39,611 bases of DNA from Syntrophaceae bacterium (GTDB lineage Bacteria; Desulfobacterota; BSN033; UBA1163): contig JACAEV010000084.1 of NCBI GenBank assembly GCA_013388645.1, positions 1 through 39,611 on the forward strand. The letters are read 5' to 3'. Below the pieces are notes generated by a model. It was given only the letters and a program-made list of their open reading frames with translations. It had not been told where the DNA came from and searched no databases. A program made the translations under genes and the position numbers. Positions 12,870-37,510 of this stretch are shown here, piece by piece. Numbering within the stretch: the stretch's first letter is position 1; each line of letters begins with the position of its first letter.

Positions 12870-14036
12870 ATGAGCGTTCTGGTTACGGATGGGCATTTCA
12901 GAAAAACATTAGCAGTGGTTCGTTCCCTTGGTCGTAAAGGGGTTTCTGTTGCTGTTGGGGAACGGACATATCTCAATACCTCCTTTTTTTCTAAATATTG
13001 TGATCGGCGCCTCATCTATCCCTCTCCCCGACAATTCCCAGATCAATTTGTGGAGTTTCTTCTAAGAGAGATTAAGAAGACCTCTTATGATTGTCTCTTC
13101 CCGATGGAAGAGGAGACCTTGCTTTTGTTAGTGAAATATCGTTCGGAGATCTCTCGATATACCTATTTCCCCAGTCCTGATTTGGAGAAGATCGAATTCG
13201 TCCGGGATAAAAGAAACCTGATGCAGTTTGCAGAGACCTATGGGATCCCCGCCCCAAAGACCTATTATCTGTCCCCTGCCCAATCCCTCCCATCTTGGGG
13301 GGGAGGAGAGGGTGAGGGGTACGTGATCAAACCTCGAATCAGCTCTGGATCATTTGGTATTGTTTATGTAAGAAAGAGGGAGGATCTTATTGGTTCTTAT
13401 GAAAGCGTCCATCGACGATACCCTTTTCCCATCATTCAGGAATGGATTCCTGATGGAGGAGGCACGTTCGGGCTTGCGGCGCTATTTGATGAGGCTTCAA
13501 ACATAAAGGCTGTCTTTATCTATAAAAAGTTGAGGATGTATCCCGTTCAAGGAGGACCCAGCACATTGCGGGAAGGAGTTGAACATCCTCAAATCAAGGA
13601 GTTAGGTCTCTCTCTTTTTAAAGCTTTAAATTGGGTAGGGATCGGAATGGTGGAATTCAAAGTGGATCCAAGAGACGGCATTCCAAAACTGATGGAACTG
13701 AATCCCCGGTTCTGGGGTTCCTTGCAATTGGCCATTGTGTCCGGAGTTGATTTTCCATATCTCATCTTGAGGATGGCGAGGAAGGAAAAGGTCAACCCGG
13801 TTCTTCATTATGAAGTGGGGAAACGCTGTCGCTGGCTTCTCTTCGGAGATATTCTCCATTTTCTAAACAATCCCCGTCGTTTTCATCTTCAACCTCCCTT
13901 CTTCCATTTCTTTGATCCCCACACGTCCTATGATATTATTTCAAAAGACGACCCACTTCCTGTATTGGGATCGGCGGCCACTTTTTTTACGTTCCTTTAC
14001 GACCCAGAGATGAAGCGATTTTTGGAGAGAAGATGA
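12870..14036 (+). CDS. ATP-grasp domain protein (carboxylate-amine ligase-like)
   Basis: Predicted ATP-grasp ligase joining a carboxylate to a nucleophile; substrate unknown. A pre-ATP-grasp Rossmann-like region (VLVTDGHFRKTLAVVRSLGR) precedes the ATP-grasp fold, which begins around residue 105 (VRDKRNLMQFAETYGIPAPK). The ATP-binding loop is YVIKPRISSGSFGIVYV, and the Mg/catalytic strand is PKLMELNPRFWGSLQLA. The family is often found with polysaccharide and natural-product genes. The start codon directly follows the inverted heptamer array and has no recognisable ribosome site, so its expression may depend on that structure or on read-through. It opens the long collinear block that continues to 30206. 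Confidence 0.78.
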   Translation: MSVLVTDGHFRKTLAVVRSLGRKGVSVAVGERTYLNTSFFSKYCDRRLIYPSPRQFPDQFVEFLLREIKKTSYDCLFPMEEETLLLLVKYRSEISRYTYFPSPDLEKIEFVRDKRNLMQFAETYGIPAPKTYYLSPAQSLPSWGGGEGEGYVIKPRISSGSFGIVYVRKREDLIGSYESVHRRYPFPIIQEWIPDGGGTFGLAALFDEASNIKAVFIYKKLRMYPVQGGPSTLREGVEHPQIKELGLSLFKALNWVGIGMVEFKVDPRDGIPKLMELNPRFWGSLQLAIVSGVDFPYLILRMARKEKVNPVLHYEVGKRCRWLLFGDILHFLNNPRRFHLQPPFFHFFDPHTSYDIISKDDPLPVLGSAATFFTFLYDPEMKRFLERR

Positions 14037-14180: not shown

Positions 14181-14243
14181 TCCAATGACGATATGAGTAC
14201 CGTTACCGTTAGACGTTATGGGCCATCTGAAAAGGACCACTTC

Positions 14244-15071
14244 ATGAAGAATATGTTGACGGTGGATGTGGAGGACTGGTATCACATCTGTGATATCGAA
14301 CATCTTCTTCCGCCTTCTTGCTGGGATCAATGTGAAAGTCGAATCCTATCTAATATCGAGAAGATCCTCACCCTTTTTAACCGGTTTAAAGTTCAAGCCA
14401 CCTTTTTCGTTCTCGGTTACATTGCAGAAAGAATCCCCCAGATGGTGAAGATGATCTATCTCGAAGGACATGAGATCGCTTCCCATGGTTATGGTCATGT
14501 CCAAGTCTACAAGCAGAAGAAAGAGGAGTTTCTTGAGGACCTCCTTCGATCCAAAAACCTGATAGAAGGTCTGATCGGTGAGACCATTATCGGTTACCGT
14601 GCACCCGAGTGGTCGATCTGTGATGAAAGAAAAAACTCTTATTGGGCTCTCGATCTCTTAACTCAGCATGGATTTCTCTACGATTCAAGCATTGCTCCAC
14701 TTCGTTTCATCGGAGTTTCAAATGCACCCCAAATCCCGTACACGATACCGACCGCTTATGGTCAAATTAGAGAGTTTCCTCCTTTGGTCATGCAATCACC
14801 CCTTGGAAATTTACCCATTGGGGGAGGATGGGGATTGCGAGTATTCCCTTATCGAAATATTTGGAAAACCATCGTTCAATTCAACCGTCTGGGTCATCCC
14901 GCTCTGATCTTCTGCCATCCCTCTGAATTCGATACATTTTCCCCTCCCATTGCTCTTCCCTGGATCAAACGGTTTGTCTGTTATGGAAAGATCAGAACGA
15001 CGGAAGAACGATTGACAAGACTCCTGAATGATTTTGAATTCACCATGGTTCGGAGGTTTCTTCTTGGATAA
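14244..15071 (+). CDS. Polysaccharide deacetylase with DUF3473-like C-terminus (XrtA/PEP-CTERM-type)
   Basis: Predicted NodB-fold carbohydrate de-N-acetylase. Motif 1 is MLTVDVEDWYH (catalytic/metal Asp-Glu-Asp), motif 2 is HEIASHGYGH with the two metal His, and motif 3 is YRAPEWS. The C-terminal part with LPIGGGWGLRVFPYR and ALIFCHPSEFD resembles the DUF3473 region of exopolysaccharide deacetylases linked to XrtA systems. The frame is open back to an ATG at 14193, but the family begins at MKNMLTVDVED and an AAAGGA box lies 8 bases before the ATG at 14244; the upstream codons come from a GTTACC-type repeat. 275 residues. It overlaps the next gene by 8 bp. Confidence 0.85.
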   Translation: MKNMLTVDVEDWYHICDIEHLLPPSCWDQCESRILSNIEKILTLFNRFKVQATFFVLGYIAERIPQMVKMIYLEGHEIASHGYGHVQVYKQKKEEFLEDLLRSKNLIEGLIGETIIGYRAPEWSICDERKNSYWALDLLTQHGFLYDSSIAPLRFIGVSNAPQIPYTIPTAYGQIREFPPLVMQSPLGNLPIGGGWGLRVFPYRNIWKTIVQFNRLGHPALIFCHPSEFDTFSPPIALPWIKRFVCYGKIRTTEERLTRLLNDFEFTMVRRFLLG

Positions 15072-15735
15072 AATCTGTATCCTCATCCCTGCCTATAATG
15101 CTCAATCAACGTTGGGCGTTGTTTTAAAAAAGATTGAGCCTCTCAAGATCGATACAGTCGTGGTGGATGACGGGTCTTCCGATGAGACGAAGAAAGTGGC
15201 CTTAGCAAATGGGGCCCTATTGCGTGTGCATCCGACGAACCTTGGGAAAGGGGCAGCCCTCCGGACGGGGTTTCAATATGTCCTGCAGAGAGATTATCAG
15301 CTGGTTATCACTCTGGATGCCGATGGTCAACACGATCCATCCGAAATCCCGTCTCTCCTCACAATATTTCAAAGCGTCAAGGCGGATATCCTCATTGCCT
15401 CTCGGGCCGCCGCATTTGGGGAGATGACGTTCCTCCGTCGGTTCTGGAATCGCCTGGGAGCAAAAGCGGTTTCGCGTCTTTGTCATTCAGATATAACGGA
15501 CAGTCAGTCTGGTTTTCGACTGATTCGGAGCAACGTTCTTAGAGCAGTGGATCTCTCGACATCTCGATTCGAGACGGAGTTGGAGTTCCTGATCAATGCT
15601 TGCAAAAAGGGGTTTCGTGTGTTATCAGTTCCTATTCAGGTCCCCCAGGTCGATGGAACGGCTTCCAGTCATTTCAGGCCTGTGATCGATACGTGGTTAG
15701 TTTGTAAAGTTTTTCTTCGAAGTCTGTTTGGTTGA
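15064..15735 (+). CDS. Family 2 glycosyltransferase (dolichyl/undecaprenyl-phosphate sugar synthase-like)
   Basis: Cytoplasmic-face GT-A enzyme that transfers a sugar from an NDP donor, most like the polyprenyl-phosphate glycosyltransferase subgroup. The start ICILIPAYNAQSTL, nucleotide-binding VVVDDGSSDET, LRVHPTNLGKGAALRTGF, the metal DxD motif in LDADGQHDP, and SQSGFRLIR (QXXRW-like position) are all present. About 223 residues, a soluble single-domain form without a membrane tail. I choose the TTG at 15064 because a GGAGG box lies 8 bases upstream and the start then overlaps the deacetylase stop by 8 bp. An ATG at 15028 in the same frame would add residues unlike the family. Confidence 0.88.
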   Translation: MDKICILIPAYNAQSTLGVVLKKIEPLKIDTVVVDDGSSDETKKVALANGALLRVHPTNLGKGAALRTGFQYVLQRDYQLVITLDADGQHDPSEIPSLLTIFQSVKADILIASRAAAFGEMTFLRRFWNRLGAKAVSRLCHSDITDSQSGFRLIRSNVLRAVDLSTSRFETELEFLINACKKGFRVLSVPIQVPQVDGTASSHFRPVIDTWLVCKVFLRSLFG

Positions 15736-15743
15736 GAAATAAA

Positions 15744-17144
15744 ATGGATTTTTACCAGCGGGCAAAGCGATATTCTATAAAGAAATTTACAACGAGTGCC
15801 TTTTCCCTTCTGGCGAATGCCTCTACCGAAAATTTAATCCGTTTGACCTATCTGGCCGAGAGGATCCCTCAGAAGGATTCTTATCGGGAGAAAATTCGAT
15901 GGATTCGAACTCTCTTCCAGACCGAACATCCGGCTCTGACAATTGCGAGGCGGGTCCTCAGCGAAACCCACCCCATTCATCGAAAGAAACTCATTGCCAA
16001 TTTTATTGTCAATCAACTGCTCGTCGGCACGAATCGAAGGAAGGCGTTTGAGGCGGAAAAAGGCTTCTATCCGCCGGATGCCATGTTGATCAGCCCAACC
16101 ATGCGATGCAATCTCGATTGTTATGGATGTTATGCGGGGGTCTATCCCCAAGAGGATCTTCCTTACAATATCTTGGATCGACTTATGGGCGAATGTAAGG
16201 AGATGGGCATCCATTTGATCCTGATGACAGGTGGTGAGCCGTTTTTGAGAGAGGATCTTTTCGCTCTCTTTGAGAAGCATGAGAACATGATTTTCCAGAT
16301 CTACACCAATGGGACACTGATCGATAAAAAGATGATCGATCGGTTTGTGACGTTGGGCAATGTGGTCCCAGCGATCAGCCTCGAAGGACTGAGAGAAGAA
16401 ACGGATGCGAGAAGGGGCAAGGGGCAGTTCGATCGAATCGTGAAGGTGATGGATGGGCTTCGAGAAGCCGGGATCTTTTTCGCCGTCTCCACGACCCAGA
16501 CCTCCCAAAATACGGATGTGTTGACGAGCGATGCCTTTGTCGATTTTCTGGTAGAGAAGGGATGTATCCTGATTTGGAACTTCCATTATGTCCCTATCGG
16601 AAGAGACCCTGAGCTTTCCCTCATGGTGACGCCCGAGCAGAGGAACCGGACGAGGGAGCGGCTTGCCTATTTTCGGGCGACCAAACCCATCCTCTTCGTT
16701 GACTTCTGGAATGATGGGTGTCTCACGCAAGGATGCATTGCAGCGGGTAGAAAATATTTTCATGTCAACGCCCAAGGCGATGTGGAACCCTGTGTCTTTT
16801 GCCATTTTGCTTCTGATAATATCAAAGAGAAATCTCTCGCGGAGGCGCTCAATTCACCTCTCTTTCGGGAGATTCGATCTCATCAGCCTTTCTCAGAGAA
16901 CTATTTCCGACCCTGCCTTCTAATCGATCACCCACAAGAGGGGAGAACGTTTGCACTTCAACATGCAAAATATTTTACTCATGAAAAGGCAGAGCAGCTT
17001 TTTGTCGATTTTGCACAGGCCATAGATTGCTATGCCCAGGCCTATGGGAGGATTGCGGAGGCGGCATGGAAGGAGAAAATGGAACGTCAACCCCCTCAGC
17101 CTCTCTTTGTCAGGAAAAAGGTAGTGGGTAAACCCGGTTGTTGA
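15744..17144 (+). CDS. Radical SAM protein with SPASM-like C-terminal cysteine region
   Basis: Radical S-adenosylmethionine enzyme, substrate unknown. The [4Fe-4S] motif is RCNLDCYGCYAG (Cys 122, 126, 129), followed by the SAM-contact LMTGGEPFLREDL, IYTNGTLI and AISLEGLREETDARRG. The C-terminal third has further Cys in GCLTQGCIAAG, VEPCVFCHF and FRPCLL, which suggests an auxiliary cluster of SPASM type. A 115-residue N-terminal helical region precedes the radical SAM core. The ATG at 15744 lies 8 bp after the glycosyltransferase stop; a TTG at 15732 is an alternative. It is not a B12-binding type, unlike the four radical SAM genes downstream. Confidence 0.85.
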   Translation: MDFYQRAKRYSIKKFTTSAFSLLANASTENLIRLTYLAERIPQKDSYREKIRWIRTLFQTEHPALTIARRVLSETHPIHRKKLIANFIVNQLLVGTNRRKAFEAEKGFYPPDAMLISPTMRCNLDCYGCYAGVYPQEDLPYNILDRLMGECKEMGIHLILMTGGEPFLREDLFALFEKHENMIFQIYTNGTLIDKKMIDRFVTLGNVVPAISLEGLREETDARRGKGQFDRIVKVMDGLREAGIFFAVSTTQTSQNTDVLTSDAFVDFLVEKGCILIWNFHYVPIGRDPELSLMVTPEQRNRTRERLAYFRATKPILFVDFWNDGCLTQGCIAAGRKYFHVNAQGDVEPCVFCHFASDNIKEKSLAEALNSPLFREIRSHQPFSENYFRPCLLIDHPQEGRTFALQHAKYFTHEKAEQLFVDFAQAIDCYAQAYGRIAEAAWKEKMERQPPQPLFVRKKVVGKPGC

Positions 17145-17238: not shown

Positions 17239-18339
17239 ATGAAGGTAACCTTTCCCCATCTGGGTTCGATGCATATTTTCTGCAAAGCCATTGCGGAGAC
17301 CGCCGGTATTCCCTATATTGTTCCACCTGAGACTAGCCGAAAAACCCTGACCTTGGGTGCCCTCCACTCCAATGAATGTATCTGTCTTCCATTTAAAATG
17401 ATCTTGGGGAATTTTATTGAAGCCCTGCAGAAAGGAGCCGATACCATCGTCATGGTGGGAAGCGGTCCTCCCTGTCGTTTGGGCCTCTACGATCTTGTTC
17501 AAAAAGTGATTCTGGAGGATATGGGTCTTCATTATCGATGGCTGACCATTCCCCCTCGATTGACCTGGAGGGCCATTTGGAAAAATCATGAAGAAACTAA
17601 AGAATTAAGAAAAGAGTTGAGCGCAAAGAATATTTTTCTCTTTCCTTATGGGCTCTGGATGGGATGGAAGAAGATGATGGCTTGCGAAGCGTTAGAAAAA
17701 TTGGCGATGAAGGTCCGGCCGAGGGAAATCAGTAAAGGAGAAACCCAGAGGAGATGGAGACAGGCTCTTTCTTGGGTCGATGGGGCCAAGACTCCGAAAA
17801 CCCTTGAGGGAGCGGTGAAAAAGGGAAAGACTCTTCTTCAAGAGATGGAACAAGATCATTCCCGAATCCCATTTAAAGTGGCCATCGTGGGTGAACTCTA
17901 CACGGTGATGGACCCGCATATCAATCGAGGCGTGGAACAGAAATTAGGAGAGTTAGGTGTGGAGGTGACCCGCACCTCATGGTTCTCCACCCATATTCTC
18001 AGGAGCGTTCGCCAAAATAAAGCAAATCAAGCTTCAGAGCGTATTCGTTTCTTTGAAGCTTCGAAGGCTTATTTGGATTATGATGTGGGGGCTGAATGTA
18101 ATGTCTCGATCGGTGAGGCCATCTTACGATCCAAAGAGGGATATGATGGGGTTGTCCATCTCATGCCCTTTGCTTGCATGCCAGAGACCACCGCCTCAGG
18201 AATCCTGAACAAGGTTGGGAAGGACTGGGACATCCCCATTCTCACTCTCATTTTAGATGAGCAAGAAATTGAGGGCCGAATTCAGACACTGCTGGAAGCC
18301 TTTGTGGAGATGTTGGAATGGAAAAAAGGGGTCGCATAG
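17239..18339 (+). CDS. CoA-dehydratase-activase-related protein (COG3580-like, 2-hydroxyacyl-CoA dehydratase superfamily)
   Basis: Cys-containing protein of the family associated with BcrAD-type ATPases and related to HgdB-like dehydratase/reductase subunits. Candidate Fe-S ligands are in NECICLPFKM, SGPPCRLG, GAECNVSIG and MPFACMPE. A second half begins with VAIVGELYTVMDPHINRGVE, the hallmark of this family. 366 residues. An ATG at 17239 with GGAG 9 bases upstream is used. It overlaps the next gene by 22 bp and is clearly co-translated with it. It probably forms, with its neighbour, the Fe-S component that receives electrons from the activase at 19379. The substrate cannot be inferred. Confidence 0.75.
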   Translation: MKVTFPHLGSMHIFCKAIAETAGIPYIVPPETSRKTLTLGALHSNECICLPFKMILGNFIEALQKGADTIVMVGSGPPCRLGLYDLVQKVILEDMGLHYRWLTIPPRLTWRAIWKNHEETKELRKELSAKNIFLFPYGLWMGWKKMMACEALEKLAMKVRPREISKGETQRRWRQALSWVDGAKTPKTLEGAVKKGKTLLQEMEQDHSRIPFKVAIVGELYTVMDPHINRGVEQKLGELGVEVTRTSWFSTHILRSVRQNKANQASERIRFFEASKAYLDYDVGAECNVSIGEAILRSKEGYDGVVHLMPFACMPETTASGILNKVGKDWDIPILTLILDEQEIEGRIQTLLEAFVEMLEWKKGVA

Positions 18340-19310
18340 GCATCCCGAGAGCCCTGATGTTTTATCGTTATTTTCCTTTCTGGCAATCCTTTTTTGAGAC
18401 GCTGGGGTGGAAGGTGGTGGTTTCAAATGGAGTCAGACAAAAGGGGAAGATTGTTTATTTTGAAGATAGTTGCCTTCCAATGAAACTTCTGGTCACCCAT
18501 GCCATTCAATTAAAAGAGAAAGTGGATCATCTCTTTATTCCCCGATTGGTCAGCCTTCATCGGAATTATATCATGTGTCCAAAGTTTCGCGGGGCTCCGG
18601 ATATTGTGCGACTTGCCACAGAAGGACACGTCCCCATTTTAAACGAGACCATCGATCTTCGGGAAGGGGAGGGGGCCCTCCTTCAATCGTATTTAAAGAC
18701 AGGTAAGAGACTGGGGGCGACCAAGAAAGAAACGAAAAGGGCTTACCTTGAGGCGAAAAAAACGTTTAATCAATTCCAAAAAGAATGGAAGGATCGAATT
18801 AATCGGCTTCCGACAGGGCGACTCTTTGAAATGGATATTCCCACACCATCAGAGGGAAGTAAAGCTTCATGGCGTGTCGCCCTCATCGGTCACCCTTACA
18901 ATCTCTATGACGCTGATATCAATAAAGATCTACTCACACTGATAAAGAGTTTAGGGATGGAGATCATTACTTCTGATTCTCTTTCTGAGGAAGAGATCGA
19001 ACGAGGAGTGCGTGATCTTTCCAAAGAGATATACTGGTCTTCCGGGAGAGAAATTGTGGGATCTCTCTTTAACTTCCTCTCCGAAGGTGTCGATGGAGTC
19101 ATTTTTCCCACTTCTTTTAAATGCGGTATCGATGCCCTGCTTCAAGAGTTCATAAAGAGAAGATTAAAGATTGAAGGAGGACCTTCCATCCCACTTCTTA
19201 TTCTGAGTTTTGATGAACATACAGGAAGGGAGGGGTTGGTCACCCGACTGGAAGCCTTCCGGGATGTGATGGAACAGAGAAGGTCTGATGGTCAAATAGC
19301 CGTATCGTGA
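18318..19310 (+). CDS. CoA-enzyme-activase-associated protein (DUF2229/COG3581-like)
   Basis: The N-terminus GRIGIPRALMFYRYFPFW is the diagnostic start of the DUF2229 family, which accompanies 2-hydroxyacyl-CoA dehydratase-type activases and is sometimes fused to them. Conserved Cys are visible in EDSCLPMKLL, NYIMCPKFRG and FPTSFKCGIDA. The second half starts ALIGHPYNLYDADINKDL, parallel to the equivalent segment of the preceding gene, so the two proteins are distant homologues and probably a heterodimer. 330 residues. A GGAG lies 9 bases before the ATG. The gene is followed by an octamer repeat spacer and then the activase gene. Confidence 0.78.
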   Translation: MEKRGRIGIPRALMFYRYFPFWQSFFETLGWKVVVSNGVRQKGKIVYFEDSCLPMKLLVTHAIQLKEKVDHLFIPRLVSLHRNYIMCPKFRGAPDIVRLATEGHVPILNETIDLREGEGALLQSYLKTGKRLGATKKETKRAYLEAKKTFNQFQKEWKDRINRLPTGRLFEMDIPTPSEGSKASWRVALIGHPYNLYDADINKDLLTLIKSLGMEIITSDSLSEEEIERGVRDLSKEIYWSSGREIVGSLFNFLSEGVDGVIFPTSFKCGIDALLQEFIKRRLKIEGGPSIPLLILSFDEHTGREGLVTRLEAFRDVMEQRRSDGQIAVS

Positions 19311-19331
19311 TATAGTTAAAAAAAGGACCAT

Positions 19332-19371
19332 GAGACGAAGTGGCTACAAGACGACTGAACTACGGGACTAA
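19332..19371. repeat. Octamer tract before the activase gene
   Basis: Five successive 8-mers are in phase: GAGACGAA, GTGGCTAC, AAGACGAC, TGAACTAC, GGGACTAA. The core GAC-A recurs at the same position of each unit. The tract ends 7 bases before the activase ATG and leaves no room for an ordinary ribosome site. Confidence 0.65.
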
Positions 19372-19378
19372 ATAAATT

Positions 19379-20335
19379 ATGGGAAACTATTTAGGCATTG
19401 ATGTGGGATCCATCACGACCAAGTCAGTCATACTTGGGCAAGACGATCAGGTCCTAGCCAAATCTTATATCCGTAACAGTGGTCGGCCTATCGAAGCCAT
19501 CCAGAAAGGGTTGGAGGAAGTTTTAGCCCAAGTGGGAGGATCCATTTCCATTCATGGAGTGGGAACCACTGGTAGTGCCAGGCATTTAGCGGCCTATTTG
19601 GTGGGGGCAGATCTTATCAAAAATGAGATTACGGCTCATGCCATTGCGGTGGTTGATTTTCTTCCTGAGGCAAAGACCATCATTGAAATTGGTGGTCAGG
19701 ATTCAAAGATCATTGTATTGAGAAACGGCGTCGTCGTTGATTTTGGGATGAACACGGTCTGTGCGGCGGGCACTGGATCTTTTTTAGATCAACAAGCTAC
19801 CAGACTTGGAATCTCCATCGAAGCCTTTGGGGATCTCGCCCTTCAAGCTGATCACCCTGTTCGAATCGCTGGCCGATGCACGGTTTTTGCCGAAACAGAC
19901 ATGATTCATAAGCAACAGATTGGACATTCTGTGGAGGATATTGTCGCTGGTCTCTGCGACTCCTTGGTGAAGAATTATCTAAATAATGTCGGTCGAGGGA
20001 AAGAAATGCTTTCACCGATTGTCTTTCAAGGAGGTGTGGCAGCGAATCGAGGCATCCAAAAAGCGCTTGAGAGAGAGTTGGAAGTTTCTCTCGTCATCCC
20101 GAAACATTTCGATGTCATGGGAGCGATCGGCGCTGCCAAATTGGTAAAGAGGGCCAATCTTTTTAAAACCCAATTTAGAGGGTTCGATCTTACTCAAAAA
20201 TCCTGTTCCACTCGGGGATTCGAATGTAGTGAATGTGAAAACCAATGCGAAGTGATTGAGCTTCTGATGAACCATCATGTGGTCGCCTGCTGGGGCGATC
20301 TCTGTGAACGATATCGGCACCGTGAGAAAGCATAG
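19379..20335 (+). CDS. Acyl-CoA dehydratase-type activase (BcrAD/BadFG ATPase, archerase)
   Basis: ASKHA-fold ATPase that injects a low-potential electron into a partner Fe-S protein at the cost of ATP. The phosphate-1 loop is LGIDVGSITTKSVIL, and IIEIGGQDSKIIVL is the second conserved block. The dimer-bridging [4Fe-4S] ligands are Cys128 in MNTVCAAGTGSF and Cys167 in AGRCTVFAETDM. VFQGGVAANRGIQKAL is the adenosine-site block. At 318 residues it is about 50 longer than simple activases: the tail carries SCSTRGFECSECENQC and ACWGDLCERY, a Cys-rich extension that could hold another cluster. It pairs with the two preceding Cys proteins. Confidence 0.9.
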   Translation: MGNYLGIDVGSITTKSVILGQDDQVLAKSYIRNSGRPIEAIQKGLEEVLAQVGGSISIHGVGTTGSARHLAAYLVGADLIKNEITAHAIAVVDFLPEAKTIIEIGGQDSKIIVLRNGVVVDFGMNTVCAAGTGSFLDQQATRLGISIEAFGDLALQADHPVRIAGRCTVFAETDMIHKQQIGHSVEDIVAGLCDSLVKNYLNNVGRGKEMLSPIVFQGGVAANRGIQKALERELEVSLVIPKHFDVMGAIGAAKLVKRANLFKTQFRGFDLTQKSCSTRGFECSECENQCEVIELLMNHHVVACWGDLCERYRHREKA

Positions 20336-20420: not shown

Positions 20421-20448
20421 TTTCTTCACTTTGACCCATGGAATAAAT

Positions 20449-21819
20449 ATGAACATCCTCCTCATCAATCCAGCTCCGACAGGGACGCTCAAAGCGACAG
20501 GAGTTCTCTTCCCGCCCCTGGGGATTCTCTACCTTGCAGGATATATAGAAAGGGAGGGATATCGGGTTGATGTGATAGACTTAGCGGTTCGAAAAAGGCA
20601 AAAAGGCCTCGATTTCAAAAAATATGACCTTGTCGGAATTTCCACAGATACGACCCGCCATCGACAAGCTCTCCGGCTGGCTGAAAAGGCCAAAAAACGT
20701 GGTTGCACAGTGGTCATGGGGGGACCTCACCCCGGTTATGTGGATGAAGAAATTCTTTCCACTCAAAAAGTTGATTTCATCGTCCACGGGGAAGGGGAGA
20801 TCACTTTTTCAGAATTAGTCTCTGCCGTACAGAAAAAAGATGGGAATTTCGATTCCATCAAGGGAATCAGTTTTTTCCATAAAGGGCAAGTGGTAAGAAC
20901 TCCTCCCAGGCCCTTCCTGGAGGATCTGAACAGCCTCCCTTTTCCTGCTAGGCACCTGATCGATATGGATGATTATCGGAGGACCAAATTAGGAGGTCGG
21001 CCCATCACCCCCTTGATCACCAGCCGTGGATGTCCATACCGTTGTGCTTTCTGTGCCTCTTCCCACTTTTGGGGAACAAAGGTCAGGATGAGGAGTGTGG
21101 AGGCGATTTTAAAAGAGCTTGAAGAGCTCTATGGCCGATATCATTTTAACGCGGTAGCTTTTTTAGATGATACTTTTAATGTCTTTCCACAGAGGGTCGC
21201 GGATCTTTGTCGTGGAATAATTGAGAGAAAACTTGACTTATGGTGGTGGTGCTTATCCCGGGCAGATCTCCTGCTTCGAAACGAAAGGATGGTCAGCGAG
21301 ATGGTCAGGGCAGGGGCGAAGTCTATTTTCATCGGCGTCGAATCTCCCCACCCAAAGACTCTGGAAGAACTCAAAAAGGGGATAGACGTAGAAGACATGA
21401 TTCAAACAGTGACGATGCTTAAACGGAATGGTCTGGAAATCCATGCAGCCTATATCTTAGGGGGACTTCGTGAGACGGCCAAGACGATTCATGAGACCAT
21501 CCGCTTTGCTAAGAGGCTTGATACCAATGTCGCCCAGTTTTCCATCCTCACCCCTTATCCGGGCACCGCCATCTACGAACAGGTAAAGGATCGAATCTTC
21601 CAATGGAGATCACCGTGGTCATTTTTCGATATGCAGCATCTTGTATTTAAACACGACCATCTCTCTTTCATTCGGATGGAATGGCTTTTGTTGAAGGCTC
21701 ATCTCCTTTACTATACCCGGTCAAAACAGGCGATTCAGGACCTTTGGCATCATATCCGGAAACATCGGCTGGGTATCCGGACCCTTCTCCGTTTTTTAAG
21801 AGACCAATTCTGGGGTTGA
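20449..21819 (+). CDS. B12-binding domain radical SAM protein (first of four)
   Basis: Cobalamin-binding radical SAM enzyme of the class that includes hopanoid and lipid-modifying methylases. Residues 1-150 form the B12-binding-type Rossmann domain (MNILLINPAP, PPLGILYLAGYIEREGYRV, MGGPHPGYVDEEIL, VHGEGE). The radical SAM motif CPYRCAFC has Cys 195, 199 and 202, followed by VAFLDDTFN and FIGVESPHPKTLEELKKG. The C-terminal region (RLDTNVAQFSILTPYPGT) is typical. 456 residues from the ATG at 20449; a TTG at 20431 is possible but lies in poor context. It ends 1 base before the acyltransferase start, so the two are translationally coupled, which favours a lipid or acyl substrate. Confidence 0.88.
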   Translation: MNILLINPAPTGTLKATGVLFPPLGILYLAGYIEREGYRVDVIDLAVRKRQKGLDFKKYDLVGISTDTTRHRQALRLAEKAKKRGCTVVMGGPHPGYVDEEILSTQKVDFIVHGEGEITFSELVSAVQKKDGNFDSIKGISFFHKGQVVRTPPRPFLEDLNSLPFPARHLIDMDDYRRTKLGGRPITPLITSRGCPYRCAFCASSHFWGTKVRMRSVEAILKELEELYGRYHFNAVAFLDDTFNVFPQRVADLCRGIIERKLDLWWWCLSRADLLLRNERMVSEMVRAGAKSIFIGVESPHPKTLEELKKGIDVEDMIQTVTMLKRNGLEIHAAYILGGLRETAKTIHETIRFAKRLDTNVAQFSILTPYPGTAIYEQVKDRIFQWRSPWSFFDMQHLVFKHDHLSFIRMEWLLLKAHLLYYTRSKQAIQDLWHHIRKHRLGIRTLLRFLRDQFWG

Positions 21820-21820
21820 T

Positions 21821-22732
21821 ATGGGAGAACGCCACCCTCGATCTCTTAATCGGTTTATCTATCTCTTTTTCTTTCAATTCTGTTCCACACTCATCCCTAG
21901 ATCATTTCAGAAGTTCTTCAGTGTGGTGGTGGGAGATCTTTTTTACCTCCTGATGAAAGAGACAAGAGCCCATGTCCGAGAAAATATGGAAGGGGTGAGC
22001 AGAGGAAGATGGTCAAAGGGGAAAATAGATGTTCTCACACGAAAAACTTTTCAGAACTACGGCCAATACCTTTTGGATTATATGGTCATGCATCGTCTGC
22101 GTCCATCCAATAAGGACCGATGGGTTGAGGAAGAGGTCGGAGGTGACTATATGAGCGAAGCTCTTCGGGCAGGAAGAGGGGTGATCTGTATTACACCCCA
22201 TCTTGGAAATTGGGAGATTGGAGGACTGCTCTTTTCCTTTAAGGGAGGAAAGCTCAATGTGCTCACCCTCGATGAGAGAGATTTGAATATTCGCTCTTTT
22301 CGGGAAGAGATGAGAAGGAGTAAGGGGATCAAAAATCTCTATATTCATCCGAAGGATGAATCTCCGATGGCTATTTTGGATGCAGTGAAGGCGCTTCGAA
22401 GAAATGAAATCGTGGCGATGTTGGGAGATCGTATCGAGTCTCAAAAAACCATGGTCTTCGATTTCTTTGGGAGAAAAACAAATTTTCCCATCGGGGTGGC
22501 CATTCTCGCCATGGCTACGGAAGCCCCTGTTCTTCCCGTCTTTGTGGTGATGGAAAAAAATCGAAAATATAAAGGAATGATTGAACCTCCCATCTATTTT
22601 AACTCCTCATCGAGAGAAGATCGTGAAGCGGTCATGAGGGAGGGAATGGAAAAACTCATCCAAAAATTTGAAGACTATATCGAAAAATACCCAGATCAAT
22701 GGTATAATTTTTATTCTTATTGGAGTGAATAA
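21821..22732 (+). CDS. LpxL/HtrB-type lysophospholipid/lipid A acyltransferase
   Basis: Membrane-associated acyltransferase that moves an acyl chain from ACP to a hydroxyl group. The catalytic HX4E motif is in TPHLGNWEIGG, the second block is GDRIESQKTMVFDFFGRK, and the C-terminal segment DQWYNFYSYW matches the family end. A hydrophobic N-terminal anchor (FIYLFFFQFC) is present. 303 residues, normal length. It sits between a B12 radical SAM gene and the ACP gene, so the acyl donor is probably the dedicated ACP at 22815 rather than only the housekeeping one. It could be an ordinary late lipid A acyltransferase, but its context argues for a specialised lipid. Confidence 0.85.
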   Translation: MGERHPRSLNRFIYLFFFQFCSTLIPRSFQKFFSVVVGDLFYLLMKETRAHVRENMEGVSRGRWSKGKIDVLTRKTFQNYGQYLLDYMVMHRLRPSNKDRWVEEEVGGDYMSEALRAGRGVICITPHLGNWEIGGLLFSFKGGKLNVLTLDERDLNIRSFREEMRRSKGIKNLYIHPKDESPMAILDAVKALRRNEIVAMLGDRIESQKTMVFDFFGRKTNFPIGVAILAMATEAPVLPVFVVMEKNRKYKGMIEPPIYFNSSSREDREAVMREGMEKLIQKFEDYIEKYPDQWYNFYSYWSE

Positions 22733-22814: not shown

Positions 22815-23087
22815 ATGGTTGTGCCAAACGATCAACTGATCGAAGACGTCAAACAACTGATCATCCAGCGATTAAAACTCATGGATATGACGCCGGAGAT
22901 GATTGAGACGGATGCCCCTCTTTTTGGGGAAGGACTCGGATTGGACTCCATCGATGCCCTTGAACTCGTCTTGGGTCTGGAAAAAGAGTTTGGGGTCATC
23001 ATTCCTGATGCAGAGGTTGGAAAAAAAGTCTTTCAGTCCGTCAGAACGATCGCTCAATACGTTTGTGAATCCCGGGGGGCAACATGA
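22815..23087 (+). CDS. Acyl carrier protein
   Basis: Small acidic carrier for acyl chains on 4'-phosphopantetheine. The attachment site is Ser45 in GLGLDSIDALELV, a clear DSI(D/E) motif. 90 residues, with the usual four-helix spacing (VKQLIIQRL at the start, EFGVIIPDAEVGKKVF in the middle). AGGAG lies 10 bases upstream of the ATG. The stop overlaps the next gene start by 4 bases (ATGA), so ACP and acyltransferase are made together. It is not the housekeeping acpP: the sequence is divergent and the neighbours are cluster genes. Confidence 0.93.
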   Translation: MVVPNDQLIEDVKQLIIQRLKLMDMTPEMIETDAPLFGEGLGLDSIDALELVLGLEKEFGVIIPDAEVGKKVFQSVRTIAQYVCESRGAT

Positions 23088-24031
23088 CGCCATCCAAAGG
23101 GAAGATTGCTTTTTGTTTCCCTGGTCAACTTCAGGACAGGCCCATATTGGAGGGCAACCATCCCCTAAAGGGGGATCCTCATCTTGAAGAATTATTGAAG
23201 AGGGCATCTCGTCAGACTCAATTCAACTTCCACAATTTTTCCTTCGAAGGGGAGAAAAAGAACGAGGAAGAGAAAAAGGATTTCAGTCTTAAGCTTCAGA
23301 TCTCGACCTACCTCCTTTCCATGGCTCACTTCTACCGTCTTCGAGCGACAGGATGGGTCCCGGATATTTTTGCTGAACATAGTATGGGGATTTATGCCGC
23401 CTTGGCCGCTTCAGAAGCCATCGATTTTGAGGAGGGTCTCTTCATCACCGAGGGCATTGGCCGACTTCTTAAAAAAGAAGGAGAACTTCATCCGGGAGGC
23501 ATGGCCAGCATCATCGGTCTTCCCTTAGAGGAAATCCAAAAAATCTGTCGAGACCTCAATGGCTTTCATCTCTTTATCGCTAATTATAATGGGTCGATGC
23601 ATTTTGTTCTTTCCGGCGAAGAAGAAGGAATAGGAAAAGCGATTTCCCTGGCCCTTTCGAGGAAGGCGATCTCCGCCAGCAAACTTCCATTTCGTACAGC
23701 TCTTCATTCCCCTTCTCTTTACGCTTTAAGGGAAAAAATCATAGAGATCCTTCAGGAGATCAAGATCCAACCGCTCAAAGTCCCCATCCTGAATCATTGG
23801 ACCATTAAACCCTTGAGAAGAGAAGAGGTCAAAGATTTTCTCTCCCGAGAAATCGGGCGCCCTGTTTATTGGGTTCGTTGTGTTGAGAAATTGCTCCAGG
23901 AAGGGTTTACTCAATTCATTGAAGTAGGACAGGAAGCAATACTAACCAAATTGATTCGATGGATTGACCGTGAGGCAGAAGCTTTCTCTGCTGGGGATCT
24001 CTTAGCAAATAAAGGGTTGGTCTCTCGATAG
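23084..24031 (+). CDS. FabD-like ACP S-acyltransferase (malonyl transferase family)
   Basis: Acyltransferase that loads malonyl or another acyl unit onto ACP. The start KIAFCFPGQL matches the family (FPGQG). The nucleophile elbow is AEHSMG with Ser100; the usual first Gly of GHSxG is Glu here. His about 207 in RTALHSPSLY is the catalytic His position, and the Arg expected to hold the malonyl carboxylate is not obvious in the usual place. 315 residues. It overlaps the ACP gene by 4 bases. The altered elbow and missing clear Arg suggest a substrate other than malonyl-CoA; this is inference. Confidence 0.82.
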   Translation: MTPSKGKIAFCFPGQLQDRPILEGNHPLKGDPHLEELLKRASRQTQFNFHNFSFEGEKKNEEEKKDFSLKLQISTYLLSMAHFYRLRATGWVPDIFAEHSMGIYAALAASEAIDFEEGLFITEGIGRLLKKEGELHPGGMASIIGLPLEEIQKICRDLNGFHLFIANYNGSMHFVLSGEEEGIGKAISLALSRKAISASKLPFRTALHSPSLYALREKIIEILQEIKIQPLKVPILNHWTIKPLRREEVKDFLSREIGRPVYWVRCVEKLLQEGFTQFIEVGQEAILTKLIRWIDREAEAFSAGDLLANKGLVSR

Positions 24032-24212: not shown

Positions 24213-24635
24213 ATGAAATACCATGAGACATTCCTACAGGTCCGATTTTATGAAGTGGATATGTATGGAATGGTTTGGCATGGGCACTATATGGGTTGGT
24301 TCGAGATGGGCCGAAATGATCTAACTCAGAGATTTCAGATGGGTCCCCTTCAGCTTAAAGAGAGGAGTCTTTTGGCACCGGTGGTAGAATTGGATTGCCA
24401 GTTCAAGCTACCAGCCACTTTTAGAGATTCCCTCTTGATCCAGACCACGATGGAGAAGACAGAGGTGGCTAAACTGATCTTTCGCTATCGGATTCTCAAT
24501 CAAGAAAACCGAAAGATTCTCGCCACCGGCTCCACCACGCATGTCCTCACTGATCTGGAAGGAAATCTTCTCTACCGAGTCCCTCCAGAGGTGCTCGAAA
24601 AAATTGAGGCCATGCAGAAGTATTTGGAGGTGTAG
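24213..24635 (+). CDS. 4-hydroxybenzoyl-CoA-type hotdog thioesterase (YbgC/FcbC-like)
   Basis: Predicted acyl-ACP or acyl-CoA thioesterase. The catalytic-loop signature is RFYEVDMYGMVWHGHYMGWF, with the Asp and the following Gly-x-Val-x-His-x-x-Tyr pattern of the 4HBT family. 140 residues, one hotdog domain. A GAGG-like box is seen upstream (AGAGGATGTGAG). It probably releases the chain made by the ACP/AT/KS/KR set, or clears mis-loaded carriers. The stop codon lies in the left arm of a hairpin. Confidence 0.85.
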   Translation: MKYHETFLQVRFYEVDMYGMVWHGHYMGWFEMGRNDLTQRFQMGPLQLKERSLLAPVVELDCQFKLPATFRDSLLIQTTMEKTEVAKLIFRYRILNQENRKILATGSTTHVLTDLEGNLLYRVPPEVLEKIEAMQKYLEV

Positions 24636-24710
24636 CGCGGTAGCGTAGCGTTGGCATTTACTGCCGACGAAATGTTCTTTTATCCGTCCCCAATAAATGG
24701 GGGCGCTACA
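24632..24710. repeat. Hairpin-forming spacer with 8-bp terminal inverted repeat
   Basis: TGTAGCGC (24632-24639) and GCGCTACA (24703-24710) are perfect complements flanking the spacer. Inside are CCGTCCCCAAT, also found at the end of the 30207-30271 palindrome, and the local repeat GTAGCGCGGTAGCGTAGCG. The element spans the whole gap between the thioesterase stop and the next start codon. Confidence 0.5.
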
Positions 24711-24717
24711 AAAAAAC

Positions 24718-26202
24718 ATGAAAGTTCTCCTCATTGATCCTCCCCACCAACTCTTCCAGGGTCTTCGGATGTGGGCTCCCTCATTTGGCCTTCTTCAGTT
24801 GGGAGCCTATCTTGAGCGGGAAGGGGTCGACGTTCAAATCATTGACGCCACGACCCTTATAAACCCATGGAAAGATCTCATGAATGCTGTTTCTACATCG
24901 AAGGCAGAGGTCATTGGTATCACCTGCTCGGCCACCTGTCTCTCACCAGAAGCGATTCAAACCATTCATCTCTGCAGAAGGCTTTCCCCAAATTCCATCA
25001 TCGTCGCTGGGGGAAGCCACTTTTCCCTGATGGCTGAAACCATCCTCCGGGAGGTAAAGGAACTCGATTACATCATCATGGGCGAAGGAGAAAATGCCTT
25101 CTCTCAATTTCTTCTGGAATTATCAGGAGGGGGGCAGGGGAAAGGAGTGAAAAGTATTGCCTATCGCGAGGACGGGAAAGTCATTCTTAATGAGAGGCAG
25201 CCTCTTTTGGTCAATTTGGACTCCCTTCCCCTTCCAGCCTATCATCTCATCGATATCGAGAGTCAGGCTTACTACTGGCATGGAATGGGGAAGAGGGCTT
25301 TTGGCCTCTCCACCAGTCGCGGCTGCGGAGATCGATGTGCCTATTGTTCAGAAACGAGATTCTGGGAAGGAGTCTGGAGGGGACGGAGTGGAGAAAAAAT
25401 CATGGAGGAGATTTCTTTTCTCAACCGCCGATACGGAAAAACCCTCTTTGTCTTCAATGAGAATACGTTTAACTGGAGTCGGAAACGGATTGAAGATTTC
25501 TTAGATCAATTGAGGAAGTCAGGTATCAAGATCCATTTCTGGTTTCAATCGCGGATCAGGGATATCCTTCGTGATGAAGATCTCATCCCTGAAATGAGAC
25601 GCCTCGGTCTCTATGAAGTGATGTTGGGGATCGAGAGCATCCGGCCCGATGTGCTGAACCGATATGAGAAACAGCAATCTCGAGAGATGGCTCAAAAGGC
25701 GATTGATCTTCTCAGAAAAAACAAGATCATGGTCATGGCCAACATCATGTTCGGAGATTGGAATGACTCAGAAGAAACGATCAAAGAGGTCTTCCAATTT
25801 GTGAAGGCTCAGAGCGACTTTTTGGTTCTAACTCTGACCACGCCCCTTCCCGGCACAAAATATTTTGAAGAGGCAGAACGGTTGGGAAGAATTCGAGAGA
25901 AAGATTTTGGCAAATACGACTTCATGCATCCAATTATGGATACAAAATTCTTATCTGCAGAGGAGGTTTATCATCTTCAGCAGATCTATTTAAAGAAATA
26001 TTATACCCAACCCAAAATCCTCTTAGGGGCTTTCCTCGACCCAAATCCCTTCAAACGGATGGCTTACCGCCTCATCCTCCGGTATGTTTGGGAGAATGCG
26101 ACGAAAAGGCCTTGGAAGCAACCGAATCTTGATGAACAATTCGGAGTCATGAGTTCGGAGTCGGGAGTATTAAAGCTTAAAAAAGAAGGTAGAAAGCAGT
26201 GA
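24718..26202 (+). CDS. B12-binding domain radical SAM protein (second of four)
   Basis: Cobalamin-binding radical SAM enzyme. The B12-binding-type domain begins MKVLLIDPPHQLFQGLRMW and continues through VAGGSHFSLMAETIL and IIMGEGENAF. The cluster motif is CGDRCAYC with Cys 203, 207 and 210. After the core there is the usual C-terminal helical part (LTTPLPGTKYFEEAERLGRI). I start it at the ATG 24718 where the family begins; an in-frame ATG at 24697 lies inside the preceding hairpin. The final 20 or so residues (from FGVMSSESG) are encoded by a heptamer repeat and probably are junk tail. Confidence 0.88.
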   Translation: MKVLLIDPPHQLFQGLRMWAPSFGLLQLGAYLEREGVDVQIIDATTLINPWKDLMNAVSTSKAEVIGITCSATCLSPEAIQTIHLCRRLSPNSIIVAGGSHFSLMAETILREVKELDYIIMGEGENAFSQFLLELSGGGQGKGVKSIAYREDGKVILNERQPLLVNLDSLPLPAYHLIDIESQAYYWHGMGKRAFGLSTSRGCGDRCAYCSETRFWEGVWRGRSGEKIMEEISFLNRRYGKTLFVFNENTFNWSRKRIEDFLDQLRKSGIKIHFWFQSRIRDILRDEDLIPEMRRLGLYEVMLGIESIRPDVLNRYEKQQSREMAQKAIDLLRKNKIMVMANIMFGDWNDSEETIKEVFQFVKAQSDFLVLTLTTPLPGTKYFEEAERLGRIREKDFGKYDFMHPIMDTKFLSAEEVYHLQQIYLKKYYTQPKILLGAFLDPNPFKRMAYRLILRYVWENATKRPWKQPNLDEQFGVMSSESGVLKLKKEGRKQ

Positions 26203-26299
26203 GCAGTGAATAGCATTTAAGAAGGTGACATGGAACAGGCAGAAGATAGAAATGAAAGATCTTTACTCCGAACCCCGAACTCCGAACTCCGAACTAAGA
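26139..26299. repeat. Inverted heptamer arms across a gene boundary
   Basis: The left arm (26139-26169) reads TTCGGAG, TCATGAG, TTCGGAG, TCGGGAG. The right arm (26264-26299) reads ACTCCGA, ACCCCGA, ACTCCGA, ACTCCGA, ACTAAGA. The arms are complementary and lie inside the 3' end of one radical SAM gene and the 5' end of the next. It is the same heptamer as at 12791-12865. Confidence 0.8.
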
Positions 26300-27672
26300 A
26301 ATTGAAAAGGGTTCTTCTCATTTTTCCCAGGGAGAGAGGGATTAAATTTTCCAATGACACCCTTTATCCTTTTCCCATCTTAGGTCTTACTCTTCTTGCC
26401 GCTCTTTTTCCAAAAACCTATGAAGTGAAGATCCTCAATGAGGTGATTGAGGAAGTTGATTTCGATGCGGAGGTTGATTTAGTCGGGATTACTGGTCTGA
26501 CCTGTGTCATCAAAAGAGCCTATGAAATTGCCGACCGGTTCCGTGAGAGAGGGGTGAAGGTGATGTTGGGAGGGGTTCACCCGAGCCTTTTACCCGAGGA
26601 GGCAAAAGAGCATGCGGACTCTGTATTCATCGGAGAAGCTGAGGGGATGCTACATAAAGTGATCGCAGATTTTGAATCCGGGGATCTTAAGCCGTTTTAT
26701 AAGAATCGGGAGTGGTCGGATTTGAAGGGAATGCCCCTTCCAAGAAGAGATCTTTTGAATAAACGCTATCGGCCTTTTTTTAAAGTGATTGAAACGACTC
26801 GAGGGTGTCCAAATCGTTGTGAATTTTGCTCTGTTCCTATCATCAATGGAAAACGTTATCGGCTTCGTCCCCTTGAAGAGATCGATCAGGAGCTTTCTAC
26901 GATCATCCACAAAAAGGGAGAATATCTCTTCTTATCTGATGATAATGTGACAGCTAGGCAGGATTACGCTTTTGGTCTCTTCGAAATCTTTAAGCGCCAC
27001 AGCGTGAAGTGGATGGGATTTACAACGATCCAGATCGCTACGAATGAAAAACTTCTTGAGAAGGCACGAGAGAGCGGTTGTATCTCTCTTTTCATCGGTT
27101 TTGAATCCCTTCTTCAGGAGAATCTGGACAATGTTTCAAAACGATTTGTGGATACTAAAGAATTGTCGAATTTAGTTAAAACCATTCAATCCCATCGTAT
27201 CGGAATCCAGGGTGCCTTCATTTTTGGATTCGATGGAGATGATCCAACCATCTTTAAGAAAACGGTCGAATTCGTCCAGAAGAACAACATCGACCTTCCC
27301 ACGTTCTCTGTTCTCACACCCTTTCCTGGGACTCCACTGTTTTACCGTTTGGAAAGGGAAGAAAGTATTTTTGACCGCAACTGGTCGCATTATGATATGA
27401 GCCATGTGGTTTTCAAACCGAAAAAGATGACCGTTCAGGAACTTCAGGAAGGATACCTCTGGGCACAGAAATATATCTGTGCCCCTCGATCGATATTGAA
27501 ACGGCTACTCTGGGGGCCCAAGCATCACTTTTTTCATTTCTTGATGTCGAATTTTGTCTTGAGGGGTGCCCAGATGGCTGTGATTCGAAGGATCAGAAAA
27601 GAAGAGATGCCAAAGCCACCAATAACTAAATTACAATCATCAAATAATCAACAAGGGTACAAGGACCAATGA
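26230..27672 (+). CDS. B12-binding domain radical SAM protein (third of four)
   Basis: Cobalamin-binding radical SAM enzyme. The recognisable protein starts around residue 25 (LKRVLLIFPRERG); residues 11-23 (SLLRTPNSELRTK) are translated from a heptamer repeat, so either the repeat invaded the 5' end or the true start is downstream. The N-terminal domain has VMLGGVHPSLLPEEA and FIGEAEG. The cluster motif is CPNRCEFC with Cys 193, 197 and 200. FLSDDNVTA, FIGFESLLQENL and the LTPFPGTPLFYRL end-of-barrel segment follow. The C-terminal tail from ITKLQSS is again repeat-encoded. 480 residues as translated. Confidence 0.86.
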   Translation: MEQAEDRNERSLLRTPNSELRTKKLKRVLLIFPRERGIKFSNDTLYPFPILGLTLLAALFPKTYEVKILNEVIEEVDFDAEVDLVGITGLTCVIKRAYEIADRFRERGVKVMLGGVHPSLLPEEAKEHADSVFIGEAEGMLHKVIADFESGDLKPFYKNREWSDLKGMPLPRRDLLNKRYRPFFKVIETTRGCPNRCEFCSVPIINGKRYRLRPLEEIDQELSTIIHKKGEYLFLSDDNVTARQDYAFGLFEIFKRHSVKWMGFTTIQIATNEKLLEKARESGCISLFIGFESLLQENLDNVSKRFVDTKELSNLVKTIQSHRIGIQGAFIFGFDGDDPTIFKKTVEFVQKNNIDLPTFSVLTPFPGTPLFYRLEREESIFDRNWSHYDMSHVVFKPKKMTVQELQEGYLWAQKYICAPRSILKRLLWGPKHHFFHFLMSNFVLRGAQMAVIRRIRKEEMPKPPITKLQSSNNQQGYKDQ

Positions 27673-29455: not shown

Positions 29456-29465
29456 GAGGATGACC

Positions 29466-30206
29466 ATGCTGCTTAAAGATAAGGTGGCTATTGTCACAGG
29501 GGGTACGAAAGGTATTGGAAAGGCGATTTGTCTTCTCTTGGCTGAGGAAGGGGCAAGCGTCATTGCTAATTTCTCAAAGGATGTGGAGGCTGCAGAAGAT
29601 TTGATGAGCGAGGCAAAATCAAAAGGATTGAGCATAGGCTTGTTTAAAGCCGATATCACTCAGTTCGATCAGGTAAAAGAGATGGTGGAAGAGACCTTTG
29701 CTCAATACGGAAAGATTGATATCTTGGTGAATAATGTGGGCGTTGTCCGGGATAACTTCCTCATGTTGATGAGTGATGAGGATTGGGATTCCCTTCTCAG
29801 AACCAATCTGACCAGTCTCTTTTATTGTTGCAAAACTGTGATCCGGAAGATGATTCCGCAGAGAAGAGGAAAAATCATCAATATCTCTTCCATCAGCGGG
29901 ATTTTGGGAACTTCAGGCCAGACGAATTATGCGGCAACCAAAGGAGGCGTGATTAGTTTTACGAAATCCCTTGCTCGGGAGCTGGGTCCTCTCAATATTC
30001 ATGTCAATGCCGTGGCTCCGGGATTGATCGAATCAGAAGTGGTGTCCAAGATGCCTAAGGAGAAAGTGGAGGCCATTATCAAATCCTCCAGCCTCGGAAG
30101 GGTTGGAAAGCCTGAAGAAGTCGCTCAGGCTGTGCTCTTTCTGGCGTCAGAGCGTTCAGACTACATCACCGGCCAAACCATTGTCGTAGACGGAGGAATT
30201 GTTTAA
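29466..30206 (+). CDS. FabG-like 3-oxoacyl-ACP reductase (SDR family)
   Basis: NAD(P)H-dependent short-chain dehydrogenase, most likely reducing a 3-ketoacyl-ACP. The cofactor motif is [19 protein letters not shown] is the NNAG-like block; the catalytic Ser and YxxxK are in [10 protein letters not shown] and TNYAATKGG; and the C-terminus [13 protein letters not shown] is the FabG end. About 246 residues. The ATG at 29466 is chosen because GGAGG (29455-29459) sits 6 bases upstream, whereas the ATG at 29460 directly abuts that box. It is the last gene of the collinear block before the accessory island, and its natural partner ketosynthase is found beyond the island at 37511. Confidence 0.9.
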
Positions 30207-30271
30207 AATTGGGGACGGGTTCCTATTTCGGACCATCGAATAGGACCATAAATTTGAACCCGTCCCCAATT
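30207..30271. repeat. Palindromic element with 16-bp perfect arms
   Basis: AATTGGGGACGGGTTC (30207-30222) is perfectly complementary to 30256-30271. A second, nested dyad TCCTATT / AATAGGA (30221-30227 and 30239-30245) lies inside. It begins at the stop codon of the fabG-like gene. It resembles REP-type palindromes bearing a GGGGACGG core; related sequence occurs at 24660-24680 and, more loosely, at 31226-31277. A transcript end for the upstream operon is possible, but no T tract follows. Confidence 0.7.
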
Positions 30272-30375
30272 CCTGCTCCAACGGATTTCCAATCCATTTT
30301 GGGGAAATTTAAAATGGGGCGATTTTAAAAAAGGACATAGAGACTACAATTTATAAACCCCTGGGTCTATTTCGC

Positions 30376-37422: not shown

Positions 37423-37510
37423 CACTAATTGATAATGATGTGTTAGTCTTGCAAGTCTTTGGTTGAAAGTGATATACATAAATACCCTTAGAAAAATTGA
37501 GTGCTTAGTG

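Follow-up and report, generated by a model that had tools for sequence, protein, structure and literature searches.

ATP-driven electron transfer from an activase has been described for 2-hydroxyacyl-CoA dehydratases (HAD), benzoyl-CoA reductases (BCR) and double-cubane cluster proteins (DCCP), and within this superfamily BCR and HAD degrade or ferment their substrates, TudS desulfurises and DCCP has no clear role (PMC11971306, available part). In the class I BCR BzdNO, BzdN carries a double cubane on six cysteines, and BzdO carries a [4Fe-4S]-OH2 site on three cysteines with His131, which lies three residues past its second cysteine (PMC11971306, same part). Type II fatty acid synthesis (FAS-II) gene clusters of Kuenenia and Desulfotalea have been proposed for ladderanes and polyunsaturated hydrocarbons; in Desulfotalea polyunsaturated hydrocarbons were found and ladderanes were not (Rattray et al. 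2009, PMC2649909, available part). Here we analysed a stretch of 39,611 nt ("the window"; contig JACAEV010000084.1 of assembly GCA_013388645.1, forward strand, coordinates of the whole stretch), which carries a trio of genes for two DUF2229-type subunits, A and B, and an activase. We put at roughly 0.55 the probability that the trio is an ATP-driven two-component iron-sulfur enzyme of an anaerobic secondary-lipid (ladderane-type FAS-II) pathway, acting on an acyl- or aryl-thioester. The trio consists of the following open reading frames (ORFs), of which the first two have 22 bp (18318-18339) in common; the coordinates, the overlap and the activase that follows are as the initial annotation had given them.

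17239..18339, + strand: A, 366 amino acids; DUF2229-type subunit (the COG3580 label comes from the initial annotation), HAD/BCR/DCCP fold; cysteines 15, 47, 49, 79, 287, 313
18318..19310, + strand: B, 330 amino acids; DUF2229 subunit, paralogue of A; cysteines 52, 87, 269
19379..20335, + strand: activase, 318 amino acids; BcrAD/BadFG ATPase; C128/C167; tail CxxCxxxC...C

Protein families, conserved cysteines and predicted folds

A, B and the activase are real, conserved genes. Relatives of A were found at 20 loci, titled as bacterial metagenome-assembled genomes, with best-segment identities of 66-91%. Both subunits matched DUF2229 (PF09989) above the Pfam cut-off, A with 48.5 bits (cut-off 29.4) and B with 159.4 bits, and a C-terminal HGD-D match of A was under its cut-off. 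Comparison of A and B with hhalign gave a full-length alignment (E 1.7e-32) with three cysteines in register. In the close alignment of A, comprising the window and 19 of the 20 loci (L038 was omitted, its match being split in two pieces), C15, C49, C79, C287 and C313 were present in 20/20 rows and C47 in 16/20. The wider alignments retained as invariant C49, C79 and C313 alone in A (17/17 rows) and C52, C87 and C269 in B (19/19 rows). A and B are paralogues of the dehydratase/BCR/double-cubane fold with three invariant cysteines each, which are the predicted ligands of a [4Fe-4S] site in either subunit. In one related locus (L023) a stop codon lies inside the range assigned to B.

A strict double cubane in A was considered on account of the close orthologues, where C47 accompanies five invariant cysteines; the diverse alignment retains three, and A may hold one cubane or more. 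Pairwise alignment of A with BzdN, read by eye and by secondary-structure order, placed no cysteine of A at BzdN C36 or C263, and neither A nor B matched the NCBIfam double_cubane model (NF040772) at E <= 0.001.

The AlphaFold2 model of A (pLDDT 82.1, pTM 0.81) positions C49, C79 and C313 each at most three residues ahead of a helix, and the same cysteine-before-helix placement is described for the BzdN cluster cavity (PMC11971306, available part). Comparison of this model with the PDB by Foldseek gave 15 matches at E <= 0.001, every one a DCCP, HAD, BzdNO or MbdON chain, and a second structural comparison put these families first (Z 11.4-13.3), followed by the unrelated lumazine synthase (9.8). 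The model of B was weaker (pLDDT 69.8, pTM 0.56); Foldseek ranked DCCP first (E 1.9e-6), and in the second comparison HAD, BzdO, MbdO and DCCP (Z 10.8-12.1) came ahead of Argonaute (9.9). A has the superfamily fold by its model and both comparisons, and B, with its weaker model, has the same families first. Within entry 8s02, the best chain was BzdN for A (8s02_B, Z 12.8) and BzdO for B (8s02_A, Z 12.0), a hint that A may correspond to BzdN and B to BzdO. Sequence searches of the PDB gave weak C-terminal DCCP matches for A alone, no HAD, BCR or DCCP family member for B alone, and C-terminal matches to HAD and DCCP for the profiles of A and B. Profile comparison with the HAD/BCR subunits of the window's own genome matched C-terminal parts only, or gave no match (probability 1.9).

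The activase scored above cut-off against Pfam BcrAD_BadFG (PF01869, 165.7 bits), its sole Pfam match at E <= 0.001, and against NCBIfam TIGR00241 (197.5 bits, cut-off 125.4). The cysteines of the CAAGTG and CTVFAE motifs in 9gai_D, 4eht and 1hux are matched in the alignment by its C128 and C167, so that by curated score and both conserved cysteines it is a CoA-enzyme activase. The initial annotation had described these as the two bridging cysteines of an ASKHA activase; the alignment agrees, and their counterparts presumably bridge a cluster in the family. The activase was under the cut-off of the class I BCR equivalogs TIGR02259, TIGR02261 and TIGR03192, which together with the absence of a histidine at C+3 in B places the trio outside the class I BCRs.

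The Cys-rich C terminus singled out by the initial annotation is present, with cysteines 276, 283, 286, 290, 304 and 309, but does not distinguish this activase. Among 13 close activases, 283, 286, 290 and 309 were retained in 13/13, 276 in 12 and 304 in 11. A scan of 24 loci and the window recognised 23 activases, of which 22 have CxxCxxxC...C after the activase core (L087 does not); those of L038 and L077 went unrecognised, and the tail of L038 has the motif. The motif also occurs in 21/21 fused relatives, which are proteins of about 1400 amino acids built as activase-activase-DUF2229-COG3580 from the same parts as the trio, with the same tail placed after the second activase domain. One of them, incomplete at a contig end and carrying the tail motif, lies on contig C131 of the window's genome. 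With the motif family-wide, a special trait of this activase was ruled out.

A midpoint-rooted tree of 61 activase domains, in which branches were long, split the trio and fused activases from the four HAD/BCR-type activases of the window's genome (support 100/99); the trio rows were not one clade, and the window's activase grouped with the second fused domain (93/89). PF09989 above cut-off in A and B, the tail and this grouping place the trio in the COG3580/DUF2229/activase fused family, and it is a split relative of the fused protein that carries one activase.

Gene neighbourhoods and genome-level co-occurrence

We compared 15 close loci (type I, window excluded), 8 loci of a dispersed type (type II, in which A is not directly followed by B and the activase), 15 distant loci and, as controls, 20 loci of fused proteins in stretches of 10-20 kb. 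B12 radical SAM genes were found in the stretch in 13/15 close, 1/8 type II (A locus) and 8/15 distant loci and in 1/20 controls; genes for the acyltransferase LpxL in 14/15, 0/8 and 6/15 loci and 0/20 controls; and SPASM genes in 15/15, 7/8 and 3/15 loci and 0/20 controls. Contig ends cut both close loci without a B12 gene (L022, L026), and the stretch of the type II locus without a SPASM gene (L030) begins 135 bp ahead of A. A SPASM homologue was present in 17 of the 18 A-bearing genomes searched. The distant loci weigh more, because the close loci amount in large part to a single conserved operon; at several of them the trio accompanies CrtI-like, MMPL exporter, START-like, LpxL and B12 radical SAM genes. 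Two further arrangements were seen: L078 (8669-12892) has a tandem A-B-B-A next to an activase and a SPASM gene, and L083 (G319:C201), from the window's genus, is a second, paralogous B-A locus with LpxL, START-like, B12 radical SAM, MMPL exporter and CrtI-like genes. In L086 (10384-13137), one ORF of 917 amino acids joins the activase to a CrtI-like/amino-oxidase FAD domain, so that in this one lineage the system is connected with CrtI-like chemistry.

Seven of the eight type II genomes belong to family f12 and the remaining one, G023, to f25. Here A comes after the SPASM gene, and an HGD-D protein, D (PF06050), is encoded in 7/8 stretches. In the five stretches read out, D is the next gene behind A, and L037 stops a short way past A. 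D of L030-L035 and L091 has three candidate cysteines, and scored under the cut-off of NF040772 (52.5 vs 350 bits). A stand-alone B occurs elsewhere in 6/8 of these genomes (one partial at a contig end), directly ahead of a ketosynthase gene at five of the six loci, the sixth contig stopping inside B; further ketosynthases lie in four of these five stretches. Pfam matches at the B loci include FabA/FabZ-type genes in L115 and L117, and LolA, methyltransferase and B12 radical SAM genes in L115. An activase 66-70% identical to the window's was found in 6/8 genomes (not in G260 and G023). In 6/6 it directly precedes a homologue of B12a, the B12-binding radical SAM gene after the window's activase (shortened in L150, cut in L149), and in 4/6 LpxL follows next, which is the window's order. 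Each piece of the trio remains beside a pathway gene when the trio is taken apart. Chance adjacency to lipid genes was set aside on the fused-protein control and these dispersed loci.

Co-occurrence was examined in 395 genomes drawn from the phylum, with A counted when stand-alone (strong, E < 1e-60; weaker, E < 1e-20) and B when outside a fused protein, in a frame of < 800 amino acids. Among the matches listed, strong A was found in 27 genomes and weaker A in 5 (32 of 395), B in 30 (in three of them joined to A) and both in 29; A occurred without B in G280, G194 and G023, and B without A in G010. The G010 gene (G010:C3:9066-10040, family f12) is a stand-alone B in a genome with no stand-alone A at E < 1e-20 among those matches. 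TIGR04072, described as 'lipid biosynthesis B12-binding/radical SAM protein', was detected at E <= 1e-60 in 25/27 strong-A genomes vs 131/368 others, and over its cut-off in 21/27 vs 63/368. Without the window's family, the values were 14/16 vs 131/366 and 12/16 vs 63/366, respectively. In that family (13 genomes), G081 and G111 alone have no strong A, and they alone have no TIGR04072.

The window itself holds a TIGR04072 gene together with acyl carrier protein (ACP), beta-ketoacyl synthase and FabG genes, as in a lipid-type cluster. The biosynthetic neighbourhood noticed in the initial annotation can be specified as a secondary-lipid setting by the locus comparison, the dispersed type and the TIGR04072 co-occurrence. 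The genes around the trio are as follows:

12870..14036, + strand: ATP-grasp protein; recurs upstream in related loci
14193..15071, + strand: polysaccharide-deacetylase/DUF3473 protein
15028..15735, + strand: family-2 glycosyltransferase
15732..17144, + strand: radical SAM/SPASM protein; conserved neighbour of A
20431..21819, + strand: B12a, B12-binding radical SAM protein; order activase-B12a retained in the dispersed type
21821..22732, + strand: LpxL-type acyltransferase
22815..23087, + strand: ACP, from frame translation
23084..24031, + strand: FabD-like acyltransferase
24213..24635, + strand: 4HBT thioesterase
24697..26202, + strand: B12b, B12-binding radical SAM protein
26230..27672, + strand: B12c, B12-binding radical SAM protein
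27796..29196, + strand: B12d, B12-binding radical SAM; TIGR04072 rSAM_ladder_B12, 390.7 bits vs cut-off 360
29460..30206, + strand: FabG-type ketoreductase
37508..38734, + strand: beta-ketoacyl synthase; 57-60% identity to the ketosynthase after B in the dispersed type

The gap between the FabG and ketosynthase genes (30207-37507) measures about 7 kb, and 310 bp in the relative L092; within it lie ORFs at 32706-33227, 33522-33908 and 34018-37479 and, at 31784-31923, a match to the group II intron domain RF02003. In the window's genome, contigs C154 and C214 carry ketosynthases, FabZ, methyltransferases, a CrtI-like gene and another B12 radical SAM gene, and these lipid-type genes probably serve the same pathway as the window. 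The initial annotation saw no obvious fermentation or aromatic pathway, which is true locally but not of the genome: contigs C135, C68 and C6 carry HAD/BCR-type genes, as HGD-D-type subunit pairs, and activases are found on C135 as well as C158. The C135 pair matches BzdN (5e-44) and BzdO (9e-18) and has two activases alongside.

Proposed mechanism and rival explanations

In the proposed mechanism, A and B, as paralogues with the HAD/BCR/DCCP fold, would make up a heterodimer in which each subunit has a [4Fe-4S] site on three cysteines, and the activase would be a homodimer with its own cluster bridged through C128/C167. By analogy with the family, the activase would hydrolyse ATP and push single low-potential electrons into the A/B clusters, and the reduced A/B pair could then carry out a radical reduction or radical elimination of an acyl- or aryl-thioester intermediate, the lipid nature of which is suggested by the gene context. 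We give most weight to acyl- or aryl-thioester reduction, less to electron supply to radical SAM enzymes, and least to radical dehydration. A tentative extension is that an archerase-type (ATP-driven, HAD/BCR-family) enzyme was recruited into lipid assembly, with A/B passing a radical, or an electron of very low potential, to an acyl intermediate of polyene or aryl type, alongside several B12 radical SAM enzymes (joined in some lineages by a CrtI-like flavoprotein), for a reductive or cyclising step of a ladderane-like pathway.

Several findings weigh against the lipid-enzyme reading. The structural matches of A are distant (TM about 0.43-0.54), and for B DCCP (6eno) was the sole family match of Foldseek at E <= 0.001, beside two KefC chains. 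Since the position of BzdO His131 is F90 in B, a benzoyl-CoA-type Birch reduction is not implied. In type II, A may partner D and not B. The dispersed type comes essentially from a single family (f12), which makes it one arrangement, not six independent ones. Among the matches listed, 2/27 strong-A genomes have no stand-alone B, and TIGR04072 is absent from 2/27 at 1e-60 and from 6/27 over the cut-off. Its presence in 131/368 genomes without strong A shows that the lipid gene can do without the trio; with many such genomes having no A, the trio serves at most a subset of these pathways. Fisher values for the co-occurrence are overstated because the genomes are related and not independent. Seven of the 15 distant loci (L079, L080, L084, L085, L087, L088, L093) have no B12 radical SAM gene in the stretch; among them L080 has MMPL, START and SPASM genes, and L084 has an MMPL gene. 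The initial annotation had linked chance adjacency to a trio common without B12 radical SAM or acyl-carrier genes; that was not the outcome overall, and these seven loci qualify it.

That the trio acts as a reductive activator, supplying ATP-boosted electrons to the cobalamin or iron-sulfur cluster of B12/SPASM radical SAM enzymes without lipid turnover of its own, is an unlikely alternative. Cob(II)alamin reduction, which the initial annotation had suggested, is only a possible role of the trio. The activase gene immediately ahead of B12a in 6/6 dispersed-type loci is consistent with an activator, as is the SPASM gene near A in nearly all close and dispersed-type loci and in most A-bearing genomes. 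On the other hand, no corrinoid-activator family was matched by the activase, with PF01869 its sole Pfam match at the threshold above, TIGR04072 is widespread without strong A, and of the 15 close loci, 9 have no B12a separating activase from LpxL, 5 do, and one is cut. The dispersed-type B sits with ketosynthases; A with SPASM and B with ketosynthases would suit a common pathway no less than direct electron donation.

We regard as quite improbable that A/B is a 2-hydroxyacyl-thioester dehydratase, in which the electron would be catalytic and recycled, yielding an enoyl intermediate with no net reduction. 2-Hydroxyisocaproyl-CoA dehydratase chains top the second comparison for both models (A, Z 13.3; B, Z 12.1), and the three-Cys site is kept in both subunits across the wider family, as in BzdO and HadB (PMC11971306, available part). 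However, the HAD, BCR and DCCP rows lie within about 1 to 2 Z, so that the fold does not choose the chemistry, and FabZ-type dehydratases are already present in other loci of the pathway. Least probable is a general DCCP-like low-potential small-molecule reductase beside lipid genes by chance: DCCP is the first Foldseek match for both models, its physiological role is called unclear (PMC11971306, available part) and seven distant loci have no B12 radical SAM neighbour, but the fused relatives show almost no B12 radical SAM and no LpxL neighbours in their 10-20 kb stretches, and the links to pathway genes survive dispersal of the trio.

Comparison with known systems

Compared with its fused relatives, the trio has three genes and one activase and lies beside lipid genes, whereas the 20 fused loci do not. 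The open-licence literature searched yielded no paper on the function of the fused proteins, nor on a DUF2229/COG3580 lipid system.

The class I BCRs BzdNO and MbdONPQ resemble the trio in fold and in the ATP-driven activase partner. In contrast to them, the trio has one activase gene and a biosynthetic context; B has no histidine at the His131 spacing (C87+3), and A, as read from the alignment, has no cysteine at two of the six inferred BzdN ligand positions. HAD (3o3m) likewise combines two same-fold subunits with three-Cys sites and an activase partner, but the trio subunits are shorter and belong to the DUF2229 family, and no fermentation genes were seen within the window. DCCP and DCCP-R (6eno, 7yyl) are the top Foldseek match for A and B, yet both subunits miss the double_cubane model and the six-Cys set is not conserved.

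The FAS-II clusters of Kuenenia and Desulfotalea contain, as here, ketosynthases, radical SAM genes (one with a B12 domain), phytoene-desaturase-like and methyltransferase genes; in the available part of that text the word 'activase' is absent, and the passages on 'dehydratase' name FabA/FabZ only (PMC2649909). B12d of the window is a TIGR04072 member. The trio seems to be a known kind of enzyme in a little-explored setting. If the lipid-tied branch is real, it would represent a biosynthetic use of ATP-driven low-potential reduction beside the degrading, fermenting and desulfurising members of the superfamily, and it would point to specific genes through which the unsolved chemistry of anaerobic lipids of the ladderane and polyunsaturated types could be approached.

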